Virus record (IMG/VR): IMGVR_UViG_3300028829_003504
Location: 186,001-250,000 of that record
Length of the DNA stretch: 64,000 bases
Strand: one strand, 5' to 3'
DNA from: a virus
The notes beneath the pieces were generated by a model, which was not told the DNA's origin, searched no databases, and saw only the letters and a list, made by a program, of their open reading frames with translations. A program made the position numbers and the translations under genes. The stretch's first letter is position 1. Each line of letters opens with the position of its first letter. Positions 3,719 through 64,000 of the stretch are shown here, piece after piece.

Positions 3719-4349
3719 TTTAATCGAGCAATCAAATGAAGACTGGGTATCTACACCTGACGTCAATCTCCCTAAGGTAAGAAAACCGAACGTAACTTTT
3801 ACAGAGACCGACAAGTCCAGTGTTAGACCTTGCGGCATGGATTTTTCCACACTGGAGCAACGTGTACTTGAAAAGGGTATGGGCGACCTAGTCGCATCAG
3901 GACGACGTTGTGGTAAATCGATTACCGCTGTTATACACCAAGCGACACTACTTAATAATAAGTACCAGATGCTTTATCACTACGGTCCTCGTAAAACTCC
4001 TGAACTGACTTACGTAGCCCTGAACACTGCCTTCAATAATCTAAGTAAGAATAGATTGCCTCGGGGTGTTGCCCGTAAGATTGCTAAAATAGAACGAGCG
4101 CAGTCGGTTAAGGTTAAAGAGGACCTACGCGTTCTAGAATTCTTGACCGAACGTAGAAAACAATTCATGTTACAGAAACCTATCTGCATCTGCGGTAGTA
4201 ATCAAGTAGAACTCCTCTCGGTTTCTGAACACGGTTCGTGGAAGTGTCGCTCTTGCTTATCTAGATGGCGCACTACCATTACTGCTCGGCTTGTTGTTGA
4301 GCGTCCAGCTTACGAAATAATAGACGAGGTCCAAAAATGGTTAATATAG
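3711..4349 (+). CDS. Zinc-ribbon protein with a partial P-loop-like motif
   Basis: In this 212-residue product residues 159-182 carry CxC...CxxC, a zinc-ribbon arrangement. Residues 64-70 read GRRCGKS after a hydrophobic stretch, resembling the degenerate Walker A of terminase-type ATPases, but no Walker B or motor motifs follow and the protein is far too short to be a terminase. The middle is basic and helical. It overlaps both neighbours by a few bases. Nucleic-acid binding is plausible through the ribbon; specific function unknown. Confidence 0.6.
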   Translation: MDNLIEQSNEDWVSTPDVNLPKVRKPNVTFTETDKSSVRPCGMDFSTLEQRVLEKGMGDLVASGRRCGKSITAVIHQATLLNNKYQMLYHYGPRKTPELTYVALNTAFNNLSKNRLPRGVARKIAKIERAQSVKVKEDLRVLEFLTERRKQFMLQKPICICGSNQVELLSVSEHGSWKCRSCLSRWRTTITARLVVERPAYEIIDEVQKWLI

Positions 4350-5050
4350 ATATTCTTAATTGCAGTCCTTATGATCTATTTAGATACTATAGTGTGTTCT
4401 TTGAAACAAGTGACACTAAGATACCTTTAGTTGAAGGTAAACCTATGTTGTTGCTTTATATGGGTTCTCAATGTAAGATTGACCAAGCATTGCCTAGACC
4501 TATAACAGGAAAGCCTGGCGTGTTTACTATGGAACTACCTAGCATGAAAATCTTTGACTTACGTAAGCTTGCCGAAGAGTACTACATGTTCGGTATATTC
4601 TTTAGCAGGAACATAATGAATGCTCCCGAGGAATTGTTCGTCCGTAATCACACCGCCCAACTCGATAAATACTTAGAGGCATTCGCTGACTGCCCTCGCT
4701 GGACATACAACTCGGTACTAGGCCAAAAGAACATGACGCCTCCTATACTACCTGCAAATATGGCTTTAACTAGTACAAATAGACTTAAAGCCTTTGCTAT
4801 GTGTATGGAAGATGATAAACCTATGCACTTACAGGCTCAGGTTGGGGTTAATCAACACTGGCAGATGGGAGGACATATATTCAATTCTGACAAAGATGCT
4901 ATCTACGGCATAGCTTTAAGGCATCCACAAGCATCCACTCAACTTTCAGTACCTCTAAGTTGGTTATCCGATAAAACTAACCAAACCAACCCTGATAAAA
5001 TTATTGAGACTATTTCAATTGAAATGCAAGGAGGTATATGTGAAGATTAA
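4337..5050 (+). CDS. Hypothetical protein (237 aa)
   Basis: The start lies 13 nt inside the preceding gene and the end overlaps the DHFR start. The sequence is a mixed alpha/beta protein rich in Met and aromatic residues, with no motif I can assign. Its position between a zinc-ribbon protein and DHFR does not define a role. Confidence 0.65.
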   Translation: MVNIDILNCSPYDLFRYYSVFFETSDTKIPLVEGKPMLLLYMGSQCKIDQALPRPITGKPGVFTMELPSMKIFDLRKLAEEYYMFGIFFSRNIMNAPEELFVRNHTAQLDKYLEAFADCPRWTYNSVLGQKNMTPPILPANMALTSTNRLKAFAMCMEDDKPMHLQAQVGVNQHWQMGGHIFNSDKDAIYGIALRHPQASTQLSVPLSWLSDKTNQTNPDKIIETISIEMQGGICED

Positions 5051-5600
5051 CGTAATAGTCGCCGTAAGTGAGGACGGCTATATAGGTAAACCCGATGGAA
5101 GCTTGCCGTTTAGACAAAAAGGTGATATGCTTCGTTTTAAATCTCTTACTAGCCTTCGTCCTATTATCCTAGGCCGTACTACATTTGATACGCTTCCTTT
5201 TGTTCTGCCTAAACGTGATCACTTTGTTATTACCTCTGACCCAAGGCGCTTTGATACTTCCTGCGTGAAGAAGGACGTAGAGTGGCCACAGAACGTATTT
5301 AGATCTGGCTCTTTCTTAAAGCTAGAGCAGCAACTATCTTACTACAGCGATAAGACTGAGTGTGACTATTCAGAAGTATGGGTAATTGGCGGCGGAGAAA
5401 TATACAAGCAAGCCTTTTATTTTCTAGACATCAACCAAGTAGAGCTTACTTTAATACATACAACGTTTCCCGAAGCTGATGGCACGTGGGCACGTTTTGA
5501 ACTACCTGAAGGTTGGGTGGAGCAGAAAAAACAAACAATGCCTGCCGATGCAGACAACGAACATCCCTATTCTTTTATTACGTACAGACGCGAGGTATAG
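5040..5600 (+). CDS. Dihydrofolate reductase
   Basis: The 186-residue product matches DHFR: the N-terminal strand INVIVAVSEDGYIG, SLPF in place of the usual LPW, RPIILGRTTFDTLP (the GRxTxxxLP cofactor region), VITSD, and VWVIGGGEIYKQA (the GG nucleotide-binding loop). It would reduce dihydrofolate to tetrahydrofolate with NADPH, supporting thymidylate synthesis. I chose the GTG at 5040 because AGGAGG sits just upstream and the conserved first strand begins there; the only upstream ATG (5004) is out of step with the family. Phage DHFR fits with the dUTPase and nucleotidase encoded nearby. Confidence 0.92.
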   Translation: MKINVIVAVSEDGYIGKPDGSLPFRQKGDMLRFKSLTSLRPIILGRTTFDTLPFVLPKRDHFVITSDPRRFDTSCVKKDVEWPQNVFRSGSFLKLEQQLSYYSDKTECDYSEVWVIGGGEIYKQAFYFLDINQVELTLIHTTFPEADGTWARFELPEGWVEQKKQTMPADADNEHPYSFITYRREV

Positions 5601-5601
5601 C

Positions 5602-5994
5602 ATGTCAGATTCAATCAATTATTTAAGAAGTAACATAAACGAAGTACTGTGTTTCAAGTTAAAGAATGGACGTACCATTTTCGGTAAGCTTGAATCAATT
5701 TTAGATAAAAGTAAAATTAATAAAGAGCCAGAATCACCTGATCTTAAAGTTGTTGAAGATTTCGAGATAATAATAGCTGCTCCTATTGAGATGGTTACTG
5801 CTATTATGCCTACTCAACAAGGTCCCGCTCCTATTGAAATGCCACTACCTTATTTCTCGGTGTCTCCATCGTCATCTATTCCGTTTATGAAAGATGAATT
5901 GTCTATGATGGCCGAGGCAACTAAAGAACTTGCGGATACGTGGTTGAGAGCTAATACTCCTATTGACTTAGAATCAAAAATACAGTTGACATAA
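5602..5994 (+). CDS. LSm/Sm-like fold protein (candidate)
   Basis: The ATG at 5602 follows the DHFR stop by one base. Residues about 12-70 read like an Sm barrel: a helix, then VLCFKLKNGRTIFGKLESI (the strand-turn-strand 'LknGr..G.L' of Sm1), an acidic charged loop, and a second pair of strands (FEIIIAAPIEMV). Hfq and other Sm-like proteins bind RNA as rings, and small Sm-like proteins are known from phages. The C-terminal half is Pro- and Met-rich, then helical. RNA binding is inference, but two noncoding structured regions are nearby. Confidence 0.5.
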   Translation: MSDSINYLRSNINEVLCFKLKNGRTIFGKLESILDKSKINKEPESPDLKVVEDFEIIIAAPIEMVTAIMPTQQGPAPIEMPLPYFSVSPSSSIPFMKDELSMMAEATKELADTWLRANTPIDLESKIQLT

Positions 5995-51571: not shown

Positions 51572-52633
51572 ATGGGTATTAGTATTGAACGTAATAACTT
51601 TGTAAGCTTACAGCTTATGTGGAAATCCATAGTAGACGCTATGGTATCAGGAGGCTTCGAAGTGGAACTAGCAGCCGATGCAACAGGAGGTGTACTTAAT
51701 ATAAGTAGTGCAGGGACGTCCTACTCCGATAGTACTGTGTTGTACGTCCTTAAACCTACTACTGATGTTGATGCTCTTGCTGATACCCAACCTTGGCGTA
51801 TAGTGATTCGCATCGAGAATATATCTGACGAGGTGGCTAACTCTTATTCAGTTAACGTAGTAACGCCAACTCAGATAATGTATGTACCGGGGTCGTCATT
51901 TGCTATAGCAGCACCTGATGAAGACAAGGAGCAAGGCTTACTTAACGTGGACGGGGATTCTACGGATTATAATCGTAGTTTCTTCCACAGAGAGCCTGGT
52001 TCTTCTACTTGGAGTTGTTTTCCCTCAGAAACAAATGTAGAAGCAGTACCTCTATCGTATCGTATATCCGTATCCGATCATGGTATTGTATTGTTTACTT
52101 GGGCGGAAGCGCAAGATAGAGCAGGCGATTGTTTTAACTGGTTCTGTATACAGAGAGCCGTAGATTCAGATGGTGTAGTTCTTGTAGACGGCCATGCCCC
52201 TTTATGGTGCGTGTTCTCTCAGGATGGGGGAGGCGGCTCTAACCTTGATACAGTTGACGCTGAGGGTATACGTAAGTTTGTAGTACGTGAAGACGATGTA
52301 AACGCACCTACAGAATCGGTTAGCGCTGTTGTACCTACAGCCGATTCCAGCCCTATAATAAATCCTATCCAGCAGGTCGCTATTAGCGAGAGTAATAAGT
52401 ATATGTTGAACTTTCCACAAGGAATAAATACTCAACGTTACGCATACCCGCACCAACTGGATATGATATGCTATACGTCCGCAGATGTAATATCGCAGTA
52501 CAGTGAGCCTTCGCTCCTTATCTACGGTGAAACACAGCCGCGGACGTATAAGGCTATGAATGCCAACTTCAAGGATAACAAAGGCATGCGAATGCTTATG
52601 TTGATCGTGGGTTCAGGTATTTCTGCCACTTAG
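51572..52633 (+). CDS. Tail structural protein, paralogue of the next gene (353 aa)
   Basis: GAGGAGA precedes the ATG. The sequence aligns throughout with the next gene: near-identical start and end, QPWR, YRISVSDHGIV, FNWFCIQRAVD, LWCVFSQDGGGG, LNFPQGINTQRYAYPHQLDM, YTSADVISQ, YKAMNANFKDNKGMRMLML. Tandem duplicates next to the sheath genes imply a virion protein present in several forms. Function not established. Confidence 0.75.
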   Translation: MGISIERNNFVSLQLMWKSIVDAMVSGGFEVELAADATGGVLNISSAGTSYSDSTVLYVLKPTTDVDALADTQPWRIVIRIENISDEVANSYSVNVVTPTQIMYVPGSSFAIAAPDEDKEQGLLNVDGDSTDYNRSFFHREPGSSTWSCFPSETNVEAVPLSYRISVSDHGIVLFTWAEAQDRAGDCFNWFCIQRAVDSDGVVLVDGHAPLWCVFSQDGGGGSNLDTVDAEGIRKFVVREDDVNAPTESVSAVVPTADSSPIINPIQQVAISESNKYMLNFPQGINTQRYAYPHQLDMICYTSADVISQYSEPSLLIYGETQPRTYKAMNANFKDNKGMRMLMLIVGSGISAT

Positions 52634-52723
52634 TATTTGCATGCCTCAAACATGTAATTTTTAGTATGATATCTTGAAGTGGGATATCTAAATTTAATTC
52701 TAAATAAATTAGGAGTACCCGTA

Positions 52724-53884
52724 ATGGCTACTATTGAAAAACGTAATCTGGTAGGAATGGAAGCAGTTGTCCAATCACTAGTGACAGACTTGGCCGCTAA
52801 TGGCTTTGAGATAATGAACGTGAACGACAATGATAGCAATTTAACTATTGACGGTGAGTCGAAGCGAATTTTAATGCGACCTACAACGGCAGTAGATCCT
52901 CTTGCTATTGAAGAGTCTGATTCGGGGAATGCGTCTTATGACTCTAGACAACCTTGGCGTTTAATGTTTGAAGTAGATAACGATGAAGGTGGCTTTCGTA
53001 TTTGGGCTAATACACCTACAAACGTTATGGTTGATAGTGCTACTAAAGAAGTAACTATGTCTAAGAGCGTAAGCGTAGGTGATACAGACTTCGCTACATC
53101 AGGTTTACTTACATATAAATCGTTAGACAAATCCGCGCAGAACACCAGAAAGGTTTTAGCGCCTGAAGGTGATTTAGCCTCAGCAGCTCAGAGTAAGTGC
53201 TACACAATGAACGTTGCTTATTGGGGAATCGATCTAACTAAAATAGATTACGAATCATTTCCTATGTCGTACCGTCTAACTGTTACGCCTCGAGGTATAA
53301 TGGTAATGGTATGGGTAGAATCACGCGATAATCATGGTGCATCTTACGGTTGGTTCTGTATTCAACGTATGGTTGACGTTACAGGCGGAGCGGTATTGGA
53401 CGGTAAAGCTCCTCTATTTTGTGTATTCTCTGAGAATGGTGGTGGTGGTGCTAGAGCTGATGGTACAGGAACTATAGCGTTAGACGGTACTACCTATGAC
53501 GCGTTAAACGCTCCTGAGCCTGATGGTATTAACCAGTTTGTTATACGTGAAGGCGATATAAATGCACCAGATATTCCGCACAGTGCGGTAATTGACACAG
53601 CAGATGCAACCCGTATTATTAACAGTACTCAGCAAGTAAGTACGTCGGAAGATAACCAGTTTATCCTTAATTTCGCAAAAGGTTTAAATACTCAACGTTA
53701 CTCTTACCCTCATGAGCTTGACCTATTCGCTTATACTTCTGCGGATGTTATTTCTCAATGGTCAGAAACTGAGGTAACCGTATACGGCGAATCTACACCA
53801 CGTAAGTACAAAGCAATGAATGCCAACCACATTAACAACAAAGGTATGCGTATCTTAATGTTAGTAGAAGGCGGCGGCGTTTAA
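52724..53884 (+). CDS. Tail structural protein, paralogue of the previous gene (386 aa)
   Basis: ATG 52724 has AGGAG upstream and aligns with the N-terminus of the paralogue at 51572; an earlier in-frame ATG at 52679 has no ribosome-binding site. Shared blocks include QPWR, YRLTVTPRGI, YGWFCIQRMVD, CVFSENGGGG, LNTQRYSYPHELDLFAYTSADVISQ and YKAMNANHINNKGMRILML. This copy has insertions before the GGGG segment and in the middle. A hairpin terminator follows. Confidence 0.75.
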   Translation: MATIEKRNLVGMEAVVQSLVTDLAANGFEIMNVNDNDSNLTIDGESKRILMRPTTAVDPLAIEESDSGNASYDSRQPWRLMFEVDNDEGGFRIWANTPTNVMVDSATKEVTMSKSVSVGDTDFATSGLLTYKSLDKSAQNTRKVLAPEGDLASAAQSKCYTMNVAYWGIDLTKIDYESFPMSYRLTVTPRGIMVMVWVESRDNHGASYGWFCIQRMVDVTGGAVLDGKAPLFCVFSENGGGGARADGTGTIALDGTTYDALNAPEPDGINQFVIREGDINAPDIPHSAVIDTADATRIINSTQQVSTSEDNQFILNFAKGLNTQRYSYPHELDLFAYTSADVISQWSETEVTVYGESTPRKYKAMNANHINNKGMRILMLVEGGGV

Positions 53885-57965: not shown

Positions 57966-59783
57966 ATGTTAAGCGAATCCGCTAAGTTTGAAAACTTAGA
58001 CCAATTCAAATGGTACACCTATACAGGTCGTAATAAGAATCTGGTAGCAAGAAAGCATGAGAGACTATTAGTGAAAGGTGCCGTATACGGCATGAAAGCC
58101 ATTAGGGGTGATAAATTCTATATAGTCTTTCCTGAAGACTACCACATTGACTTTACGGTTACTAAGCGTGTAGGCCTTAATATATCTAAAAACTCTAAAC
58201 TTAAGCGTAAGCCACCTCCACTGACTAATAACAAGGGAGAGGGAGGTCGTGCTTCTCGCACACTAGGGCCTAAAGGCCTTGGTAGAGTCCAAAAGGCCCA
58301 AGAGAAGTCTAAGTGGGATGCTACTTACTTCAAGCCGCAAGCTCGGGTAGGGGATGAATTGAAGAACGGTATAAGTTTCGAGAATTACCAATGGCGTAAT
58401 TTTACGGACATAACTCCCATTAGGAAGCGTAATGGTACCAAGGTTGTTCACTCATTCCCAAAGAAGTCTATTGTAGGTGTCCGCTTCTTACGTGATAGTA
58501 AAGGAGCTAAACTAGTTACTACTGATGGTAAAGTACTTACTATAAGTAAAGAGCAGTTTGATATGGTACTTAACGCATCGAAAGTAATGCCTAAGAATAA
58601 ATGGCCTGAAGGGACCATCTCTGTTGAAGAAATGGCTGAGAACCTTCAGTACGAAAAAGAATCGGACAAGGCCCGACGCATTTCTGATAGAAACCTAGCC
58701 AGAGCCGATAACGAAGCAGCTAGGCGTGAAAAGAAGAATCAGGAGCGTAAGAAGAGACGGGAGGATCAAGAAGCCATTAGGTCCGAACGCGAGAGATTGA
58801 AGCGAAGACTTGAGGGCCGTAAGAAAGAAGTCAATCTTACTATGAAACCTAAGACCAGTAAAGAGCTTGCGGATATATTAGTGCAGGGTAAAAAGCCTAA
58901 AGAGGACGAGGGCGTATTATCTGATATGGATCTGCAAGAGAATCTAGACGCCCTTAAGCAGATGGACTTGGATTCAGATGATACTCAGGACTACGATGAC
59001 GAAGAGTCTGGAGGGGAAGGTGGTACTTCTAATGACTTCGATGATAGTGACCTGTCGGACGCAGATATGCCTGACCCTGAAAACCGTGACTTCGATGATA
59101 ACGAATCCGATAAACTTATGGACGACCTTGACGAATTAATCGAGCAGCGACACGAGCAGGCATTTAGTTTAGGTGACCTTGACGGCGAAGACGAAGAGGA
59201 AGACCTTGACGAAGAGGAAGACCTTGACGAAGAGGAAGACCCGGACGAAGAGGAAGACCCGGACGACCTTGACGAAGAGGAAGACCCGGACGACCTTGAC
59301 GAAGAGGAAGACCCGGACGACCTTGACGAAGAGGAAGACCTTGACGAAGAGGAAGACCCGGACGACCTTGACGAAGAGGAAGACCCGGACGAAGAGGAAG
59401 ACCCGGACGTCGCTATTGCTGAGGAGGAGCTAGGAGAAGAAGGAGAAGAGGAAGACCTGGACGAAGAAGGTGACTCTAATCCTAAAGACTATGTATCAGA
59501 AGAAGGTGACGTGGTTTTATTCCTAAGTGATGATAGCGATAAACGTGAGTACGTACTACTTGACATATTCCCACTACCTGCAAACAATAACATCACTGTG
59601 TATAAGGTGTACGATGTAACCAACAAGCCTGACGTGTTCAATACTGTCCGTGTAGCAAAAGGCTCTCGTAATAAGTTTGAGAATATGGTTAAGTTCCTGC
59701 GCAAAATGAATCCAAAAGAATATAGTGGCTACTATACCTCAGCCGAACTTATGGATAGGTCTAAGAGTCCTATTAACAGCTAA
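57966..59783 (+). CDS. Protein with coiled-coil and Asp/Glu repeat region (605 aa)
   Basis: AAGGAATA precedes the ATG. The first 100 residues have a small beta module (ERLLVKGAVYGMKAIRGDKFYIVF), 220-300 are a basic charged helix, and about 310-510 is acidic, ending in a DEEED(L/P)D-type tandem repeat. The last 100 residues return to beta-rich sequence (VVLFLSDDSDKREYVLLDI). Highly acidic phage proteins can mimic DNA; scaffolding or tail assembly is also possible. No family recognised. Confidence 0.65.
   Translation: MLSESAKFENLDQFKWYTYTGRNKNLVARKHERLLVKGAVYGMKAIRGDKFYIVFPEDYHIDFTVTKRVGLNISKNSKLKRKPPPLTNNKGEGGRASRTLGPKGLGRVQKAQEKSKWDATYFKPQARVGDELKNGISFENYQWRNFTDITPIRKRNGTKVVHSFPKKSIVGVRFLRDSKGAKLVTTDGKVLTISKEQFDMVLNASKVMPKNKWPEGTISVEEMAENLQYEKESDKARRISDRNLARADNEAARREKKNQERKKRREDQEAIRSERERLKRRLEGRKKEVNLTMKPKTSKELADILVQGKKPKEDEGVLSDMDLQENLDALKQMDLDSDDTQDYDDEESGGEGGTSNDFDDSDLSDADMPDPENRDFDDNESDKLMDDLDELIEQRHEQAFSLGDLDGEDEEEDLDEEEDLDEEEDPDEEEDPDDLDEEEDPDDLDEEEDPDDLDEEEDLDEEEDPDDLDEEEDPDEEEDPDVAIAEEELGEEGEEEDLDEEGDSNPKDYVSEEGDVVLFLSDDSDKREYVLLDIFPLPANNNITVYKVYDVTNKPDVFNTVRVAKGSRNKFENMVKFLRKMNPKEYSGYYTSAELMDRSKSPINS
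59190..59409 (+). repeat. Acidic low-complexity tandem repeat
   Basis: About 220 bp of repeated gacgaagaggaagac units, with ccttgac and ccggac variants in between, encode runs of DEEEDLD/DEEEDPDD. The array is nearly identical from copy to copy and would readily slip. Confidence 0.95.
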
Positions 59784-59840: not shown

Positions 59841-61802
59841 ATGACACAAAGGTTAAGTAAAAGACAATTGATTGCAGACCCAGTAGGGTACGCACAATCA
59901 CTAGAAAAGCCATTACTAGAAAGTCTGTTGGATAGATTGGACAAAGCTTTCCACAATGATATGGACCCCTTAATTTCCGACTATAGCTACGAAGAGATTA
60001 TGGACTGGTATAGAGATAAGTGGCCTAAAGCTAAAAGGTTAAAGCAGACAGGTATTAGGCTTGGTAATAAGCAAGAGGAGGTAAAGCTTCCTAACTTCAT
60101 GCCTAGTTTATTGAAGGTTAAACCTGATACAAAAGAGTTTTCGTCCTACGTAGATAACTATATAGGTCCGTACGTACTAACTGACAAACTCGACGGCATT
60201 AGTCTTCAAATTATATACGAAGGCGGACGCCCTACTAAAGTTTATACGCGCGGTAACGGACTTATGGGTAAAGACGTTTCTCGTCACATACCGAACTTTA
60301 AGATACCTAAACGTATTAGCACTAAATCACGTATTGCCGTTAGAGCCGAAGCTATTCTTAATGAAAGTACGTTCCAGCGTAAGTTCAGTAAAGACAGTGG
60401 CGGTAAGTATACCGCAGCACGTAATACAGCGGGTGGGTTTATTAATAACACCAAAGGCGATAGCACTGGTCTAAAGTCAGTTGATGTTATTGTCTATGAA
60501 ATGCTCGAAGGGCCGAACGCCAATAAGAAGCTTAGCACGCAGTTGAAGTATATGGAGAAACTTGGATTCAAAGTAGTCCATCATCGGACAGTTAAATCAA
60601 TTGATAGCGCCAAGCTCAGTAAGTACTACGCAGATCGCGTTAAGAACAGCAAGTACGAAATTGACGGTATAGTTGTAGCCAATAATGCGCCCTATGTGAG
60701 ACGTTCCTCGTTACCTAAACACGCTAAAGCCTTTAAAGAAAACTCACGTTCTGATATGAAAGACGTTAAGGTACTTAAAGTATCTTGGGAGTTATCTAAA
60801 GGCGGTAAGATTATCCCACGTATATGGTATGCTAAGACCACATTAGGAGGTGTCAGTAATGATAAAGCTACAGGACATAATGCGTTCTTCGTTATTAATG
60901 GCTTTAGGCAAAAAGAGATTAAAGATAACAAGCCAGTTATGCCGCTCGGACCTGGCGCTGTTGTCCGAATCGTCCGTAGTGGTAAAGTTATACCACATAT
61001 TGTTGAAGTCGTTAAAGCTGCTCGTGGCCGCAAGCCTCAAATGCCTGATGTACCTTATGTTCTTCGTGGTGCTGATGCTTATTACTCTGGTGAGCGTCAC
61101 GGTGATACTTATGCAAAGCAGATTACACACTTTTTCGTTACGATAGGTGTTGACGGATTGAAGCTTACTTCGGTTAAGAAGCTAATAGACGCAGGTCTAG
61201 ATTCAGTTAAGAAAATAATTGAAGCCACCGAAGAAGATTATGCCTCTATTGATGGTATCGGTGAAGTTAAAGCTAAACAGTGGTCCCGTCAGATTAAGAT
61301 TAAACTTAAACAGACGGATGCAGCCACATTGGCGGATGCCTCTGCAATTTTCATAGGCTTTAGTAAAAGTAGGCTAGATACTCTGTTTAGTATATTCCCT
61401 AGTACTTTAGCTATGAGCAAGTGGACTAAATCTAAGGTTCTAGCTAGGATACACGGTTCAACTACAGGCTTTAAGAAACTTGCCGATAACTTCGTTGATA
61501 TGCTACCTAAGTTTATAGACTTTGTAGAAGATAACGAGTTGATTTTACGTAAACCTAAGAAAGCACCTAAGCCTAAAGGTAATAAGTTCAGTACTTATAA
61601 GATTACGTTCACTGGTGTTAGAGATAAAGACCTGCAGCATTATATTGAGGAGCAGGGAGGTATTGTTCAGAACATGAAGTCCGATACTAACATGCTGCTT
61701 ATTAAAGATGATTCATATACTTCAAGTAAGATAGATAAAGCCAATGCTAAAGGTATACCTGTTCTTACCTTGATTCAGTTCAAAAAGAAATTTAAAATGT
61801 AA
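59841..61802 (+). CDS. ligA: NAD-dependent DNA ligase (LigA-like)
   Basis: The 653 residues show an N-terminal Ia-like segment (DPLISDYSYEEIMDWYR), nucleotidyltransferase motif I K116-L-D-G, RGNGLMGKDVSRHI, RAEAIL, the OB domain (about 315-400), a helix-hairpin-helix (DGIGEVKAKQW near 473) and a C-terminal BRCT domain (about 580-653). NAD-dependent ligases join nicks during replication. The zinc-finger region lacks its four cysteines (VLRGADAYYSGERHGD), a difference from bacterial LigA. The CTGTAAA element upstream probably drives it. Confidence 0.93.
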   Translation: MTQRLSKRQLIADPVGYAQSLEKPLLESLLDRLDKAFHNDMDPLISDYSYEEIMDWYRDKWPKAKRLKQTGIRLGNKQEEVKLPNFMPSLLKVKPDTKEFSSYVDNYIGPYVLTDKLDGISLQIIYEGGRPTKVYTRGNGLMGKDVSRHIPNFKIPKRISTKSRIAVRAEAILNESTFQRKFSKDSGGKYTAARNTAGGFINNTKGDSTGLKSVDVIVYEMLEGPNANKKLSTQLKYMEKLGFKVVHHRTVKSIDSAKLSKYYADRVKNSKYEIDGIVVANNAPYVRRSSLPKHAKAFKENSRSDMKDVKVLKVSWELSKGGKIIPRIWYAKTTLGGVSNDKATGHNAFFVINGFRQKEIKDNKPVMPLGPGAVVRIVRSGKVIPHIVEVVKAARGRKPQMPDVPYVLRGADAYYSGERHGDTYAKQITHFFVTIGVDGLKLTSVKKLIDAGLDSVKKIIEATEEDYASIDGIGEVKAKQWSRQIKIKLKQTDAATLADASAIFIGFSKSRLDTLFSIFPSTLAMSKWTKSKVLARIHGSTTGFKKLADNFVDMLPKFIDFVEDNELILRKPKKAPKPKGNKFSTYKITFTGVRDKDLQHYIEEQGGIVQNMKSDTNMLLIKDDSYTSSKIDKANAKGIPVLTLIQFKKKFKM

Positions 61803-61811
61803 GGTACACTA

Positions 61812-62258
61812 ATGGACATATTTGTTTCAAATAACCAAACACTAGACAGCGCCTTCGAGTCCCATTTAATAAAGGATGCGGAGCGTATGAGCAGGAACAA
61901 AAGGAGTCGTGAGACTTTAATTTATCTTAATCCAAAGGACTTTCTAAAACTAGCGGAAGGAGTAAGGCACTATGACGAAGCTAAGCACGATACGGTAAAA
62001 GGGGTCTTATCTAGAGGTGAGAGCTTCGACGCACTTCCCTACCTAAAGACTAAATTAATCAATGGCCGTGAGTTTAAGGTGACAGGTCATGAGGGTCGTC
62101 ATCGTAGTATTTACTTACATCAAAAGTTCCCTAATAAACTAATACCGATTAGACTTATAGATTCATCAATGCGTTGGGGTGAAGACGGTCTAAGTAATTC
62201 TGAGATTACTCTAGAAGCCGAATCTTCTAGACTCAGAATTAACGTAATAGTTCCTTAA
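61812..62258 (+). CDS. ParB/sulfiredoxin-like domain protein
   Basis: The 148-residue product carries GHEGRHRSIYL near residue 96, the motif of the ParB/Srx fold, preceded by LPYLKTKLINGREFKV and followed by LIPIRLID. The ParB fold in small phage proteins has DNA-binding, nuclease or ADP-ribosylation-type roles. It begins 10 nt after the ligase. No helix-turn-helix is present, so partitioning is unlikely. Confidence 0.6.
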   Translation: MDIFVSNNQTLDSAFESHLIKDAERMSRNKRSRETLIYLNPKDFLKLAEGVRHYDEAKHDTVKGVLSRGESFDALPYLKTKLINGREFKVTGHEGRHRSIYLHQKFPNKLIPIRLIDSSMRWGEDGLSNSEITLEAESSRLRINVIVP

Positions 62259-62273
62259 GGCAGAGGATTTAAC

Positions 62274-63434
62274 TTGATACTTATGAATGGGATACTCCTA
62301 GGGACTTTAATCGCACTGCATGGAATTCTAGCAGTAGGACTAGGTGTATTGTTAAATGGCGATTTAATAAAAGCAAAATCATTAAGGCAGTTTCAGTTAT
62401 ACTTCGTATCTGTAGCCTTAACTTGGACAGTTCTTTATTTAAAAGGTCCAATCGTACAAGAAGGATGGATAGGTACACTAGGGTATTTACCTTTCTTTCT
62501 GAGTTATATACTTCTATTAGCGGCAGTATGTTTACATGCAGGACATAAAGCACCTGTTAGACGGAGTCTTATAGCATCTGCGTTAATTGCCTTCTATCTA
62601 GCCTTACTATACTGCTCACGAAGTTCAGTAATACATATTACGGATATGTATCAAGTATTAGCTTTAGGTTATTGTTGGAATCTATGTAGATTGAGGTATG
62701 AAAGGACGCATAACATCGGAGACCATTACCTATCTAACTTTATGTTACTTGGCATCATTACTTTAAGTGCCCGAACTCTGTATGTTTATGTTAACGGGAA
62801 CCTCGGATCGGGTTTTGTATACACAGCCGTAGCATTTACATTAGTTAACGTAGGTATATGCTTATCTATAATGGCTAGTTACTTCCTAGAAGTAAAAGTG
62901 GCTCTTGAGAAACAGGCAAATACGGATAGTCTCACAGGAGTGTATAATCGACGGTACTTTACGTCTAGCTTGGAGCAAACACACGCGTCCTGTAAGAGAC
63001 GCAATTCCACATACTCTATTATTATTTGTGATATTGATTTATTTAAGAATGTTAATGATACTTATGGTCATATTTGTGGAGACTTAGCTTTAATTAAAGT
63101 CGCTCGATGCTTAGACAAAATTAAAAGATGCGAGGATACCCTATCTAGGTATGGAGGAGAGGAGTTTGTATTTCTGCTTCCTGATACAAAGCTTGAAGAG
63201 GCTACTAAGTTGGCTGAACGCTTCCGTCGCAAAGTAGCGGATCTGACAATCGACCTGGGTCAGAAGTCCCTATCATTGACCATGAGCTTTGGAGTAGCCG
63301 GAGTGTACGGTATGTCGGATCCCTCTGATGTAGTCGGAGACGCGGACATAGCCCTTCTGTATGCTAAAGGTGACGGAAGGAATGGAGTCTATTACTCGGA
63401 TCGTGGAGTGCTTCATTCAGGAAAGACCCTATAA
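62274..63434 (+). CDS. Membrane diguanylate cyclase (GGDEF)
   Basis: About seven hydrophobic helices span residues 1-205. A full GGDEF domain follows: TDSLTGVYNRR, CDIDLFKNVNDTYGH, the active-site motif GGEEF at 294-298, and ADIALLYAKGDGRNGV. The RxxD product-inhibition site (R285-x2-D288) sits five residues before GGEEF, its canonical spacing. No EAL or HD-GYP domain is present. It should make c-di-GMP from GTP at the host membrane, steering motility, biofilm or phage resistance. I use the TTG at 62274 (AGAGGA 6 nt upstream); ATG 62283 is the alternative. Confidence 0.9.
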   Translation: MILMNGILLGTLIALHGILAVGLGVLLNGDLIKAKSLRQFQLYFVSVALTWTVLYLKGPIVQEGWIGTLGYLPFFLSYILLLAAVCLHAGHKAPVRRSLIASALIAFYLALLYCSRSSVIHITDMYQVLALGYCWNLCRLRYERTHNIGDHYLSNFMLLGIITLSARTLYVYVNGNLGSGFVYTAVAFTLVNVGICLSIMASYFLEVKVALEKQANTDSLTGVYNRRYFTSSLEQTHASCKRRNSTYSIIICDIDLFKNVNDTYGHICGDLALIKVARCLDKIKRCEDTLSRYGGEEFVFLLPDTKLEEATKLAERFRRKVADLTIDLGQKSLSLTMSFGVAGVYGMSDPSDVVGDADIALLYAKGDGRNGVYYSDRGVLHSGKTL

Positions 63435-63459: not shown

Positions 63460-63485
63460 ACCTTGCTGTGTTCACATGGCGAGGT
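63460..63485 (+). terminator. Strong hairpin after the diguanylate cyclase gene
   Basis: ACCTTGCTGTG (63460-63470) pairs with CACATGGCGAGGT minus its first two bases (63475-63485), 11 pairs with three G-U, around a TTCA loop. Only a short T-rich stretch follows (CTTTGG), so termination is plausible but not certain. The rest of the gap to 63543 shows no further element. Confidence 0.5.
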
Positions 63486-63543
63486 CTTTGGTATCTAATG
63501 TCAATAATTGGTACCAAATTTAACCTTTTTAGTAGGACATAAT

Positions 63544-64000
63544 ATGTATAAGAAACATATGGTAGGCACTGAGAGCTGGAGGGACTTCATAGCGGAAGCA
63601 CCTAACTTTAGACTTGAAATATACTCAGGCATACCTTTCTATTTGGACCTGCAGCAACTGCTGATACAAGGGGCTGTAAGTTTTGAAGGTGAGAGCCCTA
63701 TACCAGATTTAAGTACCCATATTGGGGATGACGGCCAACCGTTAGGAGACCCTCTTCTATATACCGTAGAAGAGCTCCCCTTACGTGGATGGAACTATAT
63801 ACCTATAACGATTATGGACCCAGTTAATGCCATAGTCAGAAACACTAGAGACCGACGCGGCTGGGTGATAACGGCCGCTCCAGGATATGAAGGTGAAGAC
63901 TGCTTTAACTACTTTCTAACAAACGGCTTTCAGGCATCCGGGTATGGTAAAGTAGAACTTATAATACTTCCTTGGTATGAGTTACTTGTCGAGATACAAT
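63544..64000 (+). CDS. Start of a probable structural protein with a cadherin-like module (partial)
   Basis: The frame opens with ATG at 63544 and stays open to the window end (152 residues). GGACATA upstream may serve as ribosome-binding site. Residues about 116-148 (PGYEGEDCFNYFLTNGFQASGYGKVELII) resemble the 'D-x-F-x-Y ... N/DG ... V-x-V' pattern of cadherin-like/VCBS domains seen in phage adhesins. A virion surface role is inferred; the protein continues beyond the window. Confidence 0.55.
   Translation, partial: MYKKHMVGTESWRDFIAEAPNFRLEIYSGIPFYLDLQQLLIQGAVSFEGESPIPDLSTHIGDDGQPLGDPLLYTVEELPLRGWNYIPITIMDPVNAIVRNTRDRRGWVITAAPGYEGEDCFNYFLTNGFQASGYGKVELIILPWYELLVEIQ

Follow-up and report, generated by a model that had tools for sequence, protein, structure and literature searches.

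The best account of one gene in a 261,788-base virus record, and quite a likely one, is that it is a horizontally acquired accessory gene that encodes a bacterial-type membrane diguanylate cyclase (DGC) in a probably virulent jumbo phage. The gene lies at 62274..63434 (+ strand) of the window, the 64-kb stretch that was analyzed, which corresponds to bases 186001-250000 of the record. The match of its open reading frame (ORF) to the architecture of membrane GGDEF proteins is far beyond chance, and the sequence-only reading that had pointed to a GGDEF ORF with its motifs and helices proves right in each part, that is, in the domain, the residues, and the predicted topology.

A GGDEF domain behind seven predicted helices

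The ORF has 386 codons and no internal stops. It begins with a TTG, and a likely ribosome-binding site, AGAGGA, can be read directly 6 nt 5' of this codon (62262..62267, +). An in-frame ATG at 62283 (Met4), three codons past the TTG, is an alternative start. The only Pfam domain of the protein is GGDEF, which the profile search places at residues 215-370 (62916..63383, +). PF00990 aligns there with E = 6e-44, covering positions 1-160 of the 161 in its profile, and the score of 150.1 bits against a curated cut-off of 23.8 indicates that the whole domain is present. In NCBIfam, the generic GGDEF domain model is above its cut-off, and none of the equivalogs reaches its own. Foldseek likewise returns GGDEF cyclases as the top matches, including SiaD, DgcZ, WspR, and PleD; the best fold match is SiaD (7e6g, E = 4e-19), and a c-di-GMP-bound GGDEF structure (3ign) superposes at 1.3 A rmsd.

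Alignment to PleD (chain 2wb4), whose numbering is used here, shows how complete the active site is. The GGEEF signature (63153..63167, +; residues 294-298) occupies PleD 368-372 and supplies the equivalent of E370, and the remaining metal and GTP residues are all present: D253 (D327), K258 (K332), N261 (N335), D270 (D344), and, near the C-terminus, K365 (K442) and R369 (R446). This rules out a degenerate GGDEF domain. The RxxD motif of the inhibitory site (I-site) is RCED (63126..63137, +), in which R285 and D288 correspond to PleD R359 and D362; it ends five residues before GGEEF, the same spacing as in PleD, and the secondary I-site arginine is also there (R316, PleD R390). These are the features of feedback-controlled members, and the I-site predicts product inhibition of the phage cyclase. 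The earlier claim that GGEEF, the metal-binding and substrate motifs, and a canonically spaced RxxD are all present is thus confirmed residue by residue. The equivalents of N335 and D344, which contact guanine in PleD, bear on the product as well. The Hypr GGDEF enzymes, which synthesize cGAMP, have a substitution at the D344 guanine-contact position. Since D270 is still an aspartate, a Hypr cGAMP synthase is ruled out, and the predicted product is c-di-GMP rather than cGAMP.

The N-terminal membrane module (residues 1-205; 62274..62888, +) matches no family. Seven helices are predicted, at residues 2-28, 35-57, 66-88, 93-116, 122-146, 150-174, and 177-216. A simple hydropathy cut retains six of them and leaves out the one at about 122-146, which is weaker; the positive charges in alternate loops fit the positive-inside rule for seven helices, with the N-terminus out and the C-terminus in. 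An AlphaFold2 model built from 20 aligned sequences also has seven long helices, the last of which (177-216) continues into the GGDEF domain. The GGDEF domain is modeled with a pLDDT mostly above 95, but most of the membrane part reaches only about 50-70, so the model of the N-terminal part is one of low confidence. Hydropathy, charge pattern, and AlphaFold2 therefore bear out, as a prediction, the about seven transmembrane (TM) helices first proposed, and they place a cytoplasmic GGDEF domain after several TM helices, as in membrane-anchored DGCs.

What this module may sense is a separate matter. With E values up to 1 allowed, residues 1-208 do not match any Pfam family, MASE or other named sensors included, and a known MASE sensor identity for the seven-TM part was dropped for this reason. 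A search of 399 Pseudomonadota genomes with the N-terminal part gives chance-level matches only (E 0.003-0.008); the query had no positive control, so this absence of homologues is weak evidence. The protein had been called membrane-sensing. The membrane half of that description stands, as a predicted anchor, and the sensing half follows from the architecture only, because the seven-TM part matches no known sensor family.

The place of the gene in the phage genome

The neighbors of the gene are phage genes on both sides. To the left is an NAD-dependent DNA ligase (59841..61802, +), conserved in related phages and followed after 9 nt by a 148-aa ORF (61812..62258, +), which has no assigned function and has a homologue (32%) elsewhere in phage NCTB. 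This ORF lies 15 nt upstream of the GGDEF gene. Past the GGDEF stop codon come two successive terminator-like hairpins (63460..63485 and 63487..63518, +), which as a pair are strong (z = -2.9 against shuffles), and then the next conserved gene, o364 (63544..64000, +), whose ATG was set by comparison with relatives and which extends beyond the window. Farther on there are two large ORFs (one is related to the phrog_12249 tail proteins), a glycosyltransferase of family 2 (GT2), and a head maturation protease. The 9-nt and 15-nt gaps, together with the hairpins after the GGDEF gene as found in a pattern scan for promoters and terminators, suggest that the ligase, the 148-aa ORF, and the GGDEF gene form one transcription unit. 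No c-di-GMP riboswitch or other Rfam RNA is present in the 64-kb window, and a search for flanking repeats of a mobile element turned up only short, weak pairs. The phage genes on the two sides are arranged as in relatives, which makes it unlikely that the record is misassembled or contaminated with bacterial DNA.

Other features of the region can be mentioned in their own right. An acidic tandem repeat (EEEDPDDLDEEEDP units) occurs at 59170-59440 within a KMPT-N protein (57966-59783). There are three phrog_12249 paralogues, labeled "tail sheath," around the region (51572-52633, 52679-53884, and 4283-5812 of locus L002), and the ORF at 43915-45570 matches phrog_23, the common sheath family. 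The phrog_12249 label is probably wrong, and these are more likely another virion or tail protein.

The record is related to phages NCTB, PaBG, and Lu11 and to Erwinia and Dickeya jumbo phages; one tail protein and the ligase are closest to NCTB (46% and 39%), and then to the others. A search with a three-sequence alignment of the ligase recovers 39 loci, and a single-sequence scan recovers none. The order ligase, (o364), glycosyltransferase, protease recurs in some two dozen related loci, all of which lack a GGDEF gene at the ligase/o364 place. A PF00990 search of the whole related records finds a GGDEF domain in 0 of 24, several of which are partial and some near-copies of one another. The o364 homologue begins directly after the ligase in two loci (L168 and L169), one small ORF intervenes in NCTB and L185, and other relatives have different, unrelated ORFs between the ligase and the GT2 gene, which makes this interval a place of variable content. 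For example, in L171, L176, L180, L186, and L193, the place of the GGDEF gene is occupied by tandem families of lysine-rich proteins that start with "MGKIIIRADDSFE" or similar. A gene flanked by phage genes and missing at this place in relatives is what one expects of an accessory (moron- or AMG-like) gene. The simplest history is that the 148-aa ORF and the GGDEF gene were inserted between ligase and o364; loss of the GGDEF gene in all relatives is less economical.

Where the gene came from is harder to say. Its GC content equals that of the phage. In codon use, with the window plus 13.8 kb as the baseline, only two of 45 phage genes deviate more (z = -2.6), which is a modest deviation and hints only weakly at a foreign origin. 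Domains from many bacterial phyla share 34-48% identity with the GGDEF domain. In a 116-row GGDEF tree, the phage sequence sits on a long branch (0.95 changes per column) with no supported neighbor; the rows closest to it come from several phyla and do not point to any one donor. The viral label has to change about 22 times across the tree, of which supported branches force only three; hence a single origin of phage DGCs is not favored. There is no close homologue that would let purifying selection along the phage branch be tested.

The gene content of the record, which is possibly incomplete, speaks to the lifestyle of the phage. It holds no integrase, resolvase, or serine recombinase, which fits a virulent phage, and the phage is probably virulent on this account. 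It also holds one GGDEF gene and, in its 261.8 kb, no EAL, HD-GYP, or PilZ genes, so the phage would bring synthesis only and rely on receptors of the host.

Other phage-borne and bacterial diguanylate cyclases

The sequence-only reading had called phage-encoded GGDEF proteins uncommon. This holds within the phage group and among isolates, since about 50,700 phage records contain few credible isolated virulent carriers, mainly Bacillus phages SP-15 and G. It stands less well against the DGCs already described in viruses and against IMG/VR, in which at least 186 stretches encode a DGC (a pattern-limited count), many of them looking like prophages by record size and type only. DGCs have been found in a Mu-like virus from the Cariaco Basin (PMC7785012), in Methylobacterium viruses (PMC8290583), and in sargassum viruses (PMC11295528), where, as in this record, the gene is proposed to be auxiliary. 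However, those carriers are Mu-like, prophage-related, or metagenomic viruses, and the available portions of the three papers describe no seven-TM DGC of a jumbo phage. The literature searched holds no functional study of a phage-borne DGC.

The nearest parallels among isolates are SP15_150 of phage SP-15 and gp350 of phage G, which are also GGDEF proteins of jumbo phages with GG(E/D)EF and RxxD intact. They are only 183 and 254 aa long, with about one or two hydrophobic helices against the seven TM helices predicted here, are 34% and 31% identical to the present protein, and belong to unrelated phages. Closer in length is "Diguanylate cyclase AdrA" of an uncultured Caudovirales phage (A0A6J5LEQ5, 358 aa), the best fold match in BFVD; it aligns over nearly the whole length, but at 22% identity and with a full-length rmsd of 15 A. 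Among bacterial enzymes, the GGDEF domains of PleD, SiaD, and WspR (PF00990, TIGR00254) share the fold and the catalytic, guanine-binding, and I-site residues. Those proteins are receiver-domain or soluble, partner-controlled forms, whereas in the phage protein seven TM helices precede the domain. Bacterial multi-TM DGCs of the MASE families and the AdrA/DgcQ type have the same layout of several TM helices, a signaling helix, and one GGDEF domain, but the phage N-terminal part has neither a Pfam match nor more than the chance-level matches in Pseudomonadota. Phage-borne DGCs are thus already known, and what is distinctive here is the orphan seven-TM module and the isolated occurrence in the phage group.

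Some records were set aside or noted in passing. "Microcystis phage MaAM05" (L088, MW495066.1) was rejected as a jumbo precedent, as its DGC has pgi, ferredoxin, sufS, and hemW around it, and the record may contain bacterial chromosome. Several unannotated Listeria and Staphylococcus records, as well as the Acinetobacter MD-2021a records, have DGC matches that seem to stem from host DNA and were not counted. A 329-kb IMG/VR contig (L148, 5473-11960) has a two-TM DGC near ORFs that resemble, by eye, the flagellar switch proteins FliG and FliM; this would make it a remarkable virus, unless the contig is bacterial and misclassified. A short soluble DGC that has both GGEEF and RxxD is encoded on a 7.9-kb viral contig (L003, 2408-2959), along with an ORF that resembles, by eye, a T4-type single-strand DNA-binding protein.

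What the enzyme may do during infection

Judged by its residues, the phage protein is probably a c-di-GMP synthase, and the mechanism proposed for it follows the established one of GGDEF cyclases. The seven helices would anchor a dimer in the inner membrane of the host, and the last would extend as a signaling helix into the cytoplasmic GGDEF domains. Membrane module and signaling helix would hold the two subunits so that two GTP are brought together and joined into c-di-GMP. Binding of c-di-GMP at R285 and D288 of the I-site and at R316 would then stop the enzyme, which would limit its output. The gene, which would have been gained horizontally, now shares the ligase/o364 interval with the 148-aa ORF, in the midst of genes for virion parts. 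In an infected cell, the enzyme would raise c-di-GMP and most likely favor a state in which the host is non-motile, attached to surfaces, or producing matrix. The receptor of phage N4 is a glycan dependent on c-di-GMP (PMC8669472), and DGCs on other mobile elements alter biofilm and motility in recipients (PMC10672970), which makes an effect on the host plausible; reprogramming of host c-di-GMP, as the sequence-only reading had it, is plausible by this analogy. Of course, the benefit of a cyclase to a lytic phage is not obvious.

A real, if minority, possibility is that the gene is passive or recently captured cargo, carried transiently, whose enzyme may work and yet bring the phage no benefit. 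Its single occurrence in the phage group, its somewhat atypical codon use, the lack of partner c-di-GMP genes in the record, and the unrelated ORFs that other relatives have between ligase and GT2 all agree with this. Yet the ORF is intact and every checked residue has been kept on the long branch, whose divergence may predate capture, and the tight spacing, ribosome-binding site, and terminator-like hairpins suggest that the gene has been fitted into the expression program of the phage. One could also consider, tentatively and as an unlikely case, that the orphan seven-TM module responds to a cue from the envelope or from infection and thereby adjusts host c-di-GMP within the lytic cycle of the virulent jumbo phage, for example, by holding infected cells sessile or by changing the surface to exclude competitors.

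It is distinctly unlikely that the role is control of superinfection, in which raised c-di-GMP would alter receptor pili, flagella, or exopolysaccharide and so affect later phages. The N4 glycan is one precedent for such receptors, and another is cellulose, which serves Erwinia phage S6 as its first receptor (PMC9544554). If the gene is co-expressed with the neighboring structural genes, however, it would act late in the lytic cycle. Interference with nucleotide-based defense, by a flood of cyclic dinucleotide or a drain on GTP rather than a change of lifestyle, is improbable. Defenses that use nucleotide signals and phage countermeasures to them do exist (e.g., Panoptes, PMC12657218), and the GGDEF gene is accessory. 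However, the guanine-contact residues predict ordinary c-di-GMP, the I-site would cap the output, no neighbor is a recognized defense or anti-defense gene, and there is no match in PADLOC, whose library covers defense rather than anti-defense proteins. Finally, a dead enzyme serving as a c-di-GMP receptor through its intact I-site is scarcely credible here, where GGEEF and the metal and substrate residues are all present, even if degenerate GGDEF receptors occur in bacteria.

As it stands, the gene for this putative membrane cyclase is a well-preserved instance of an accessory gene that phages carry now and then. If the enzyme works in infection, a lytic jumbo phage would add to the c-di-GMP pool of its host from a membrane-anchored, feedback-limited source, and the gene would offer a concrete means of probing whether phages drive shifts between motile and attached states of their hosts.
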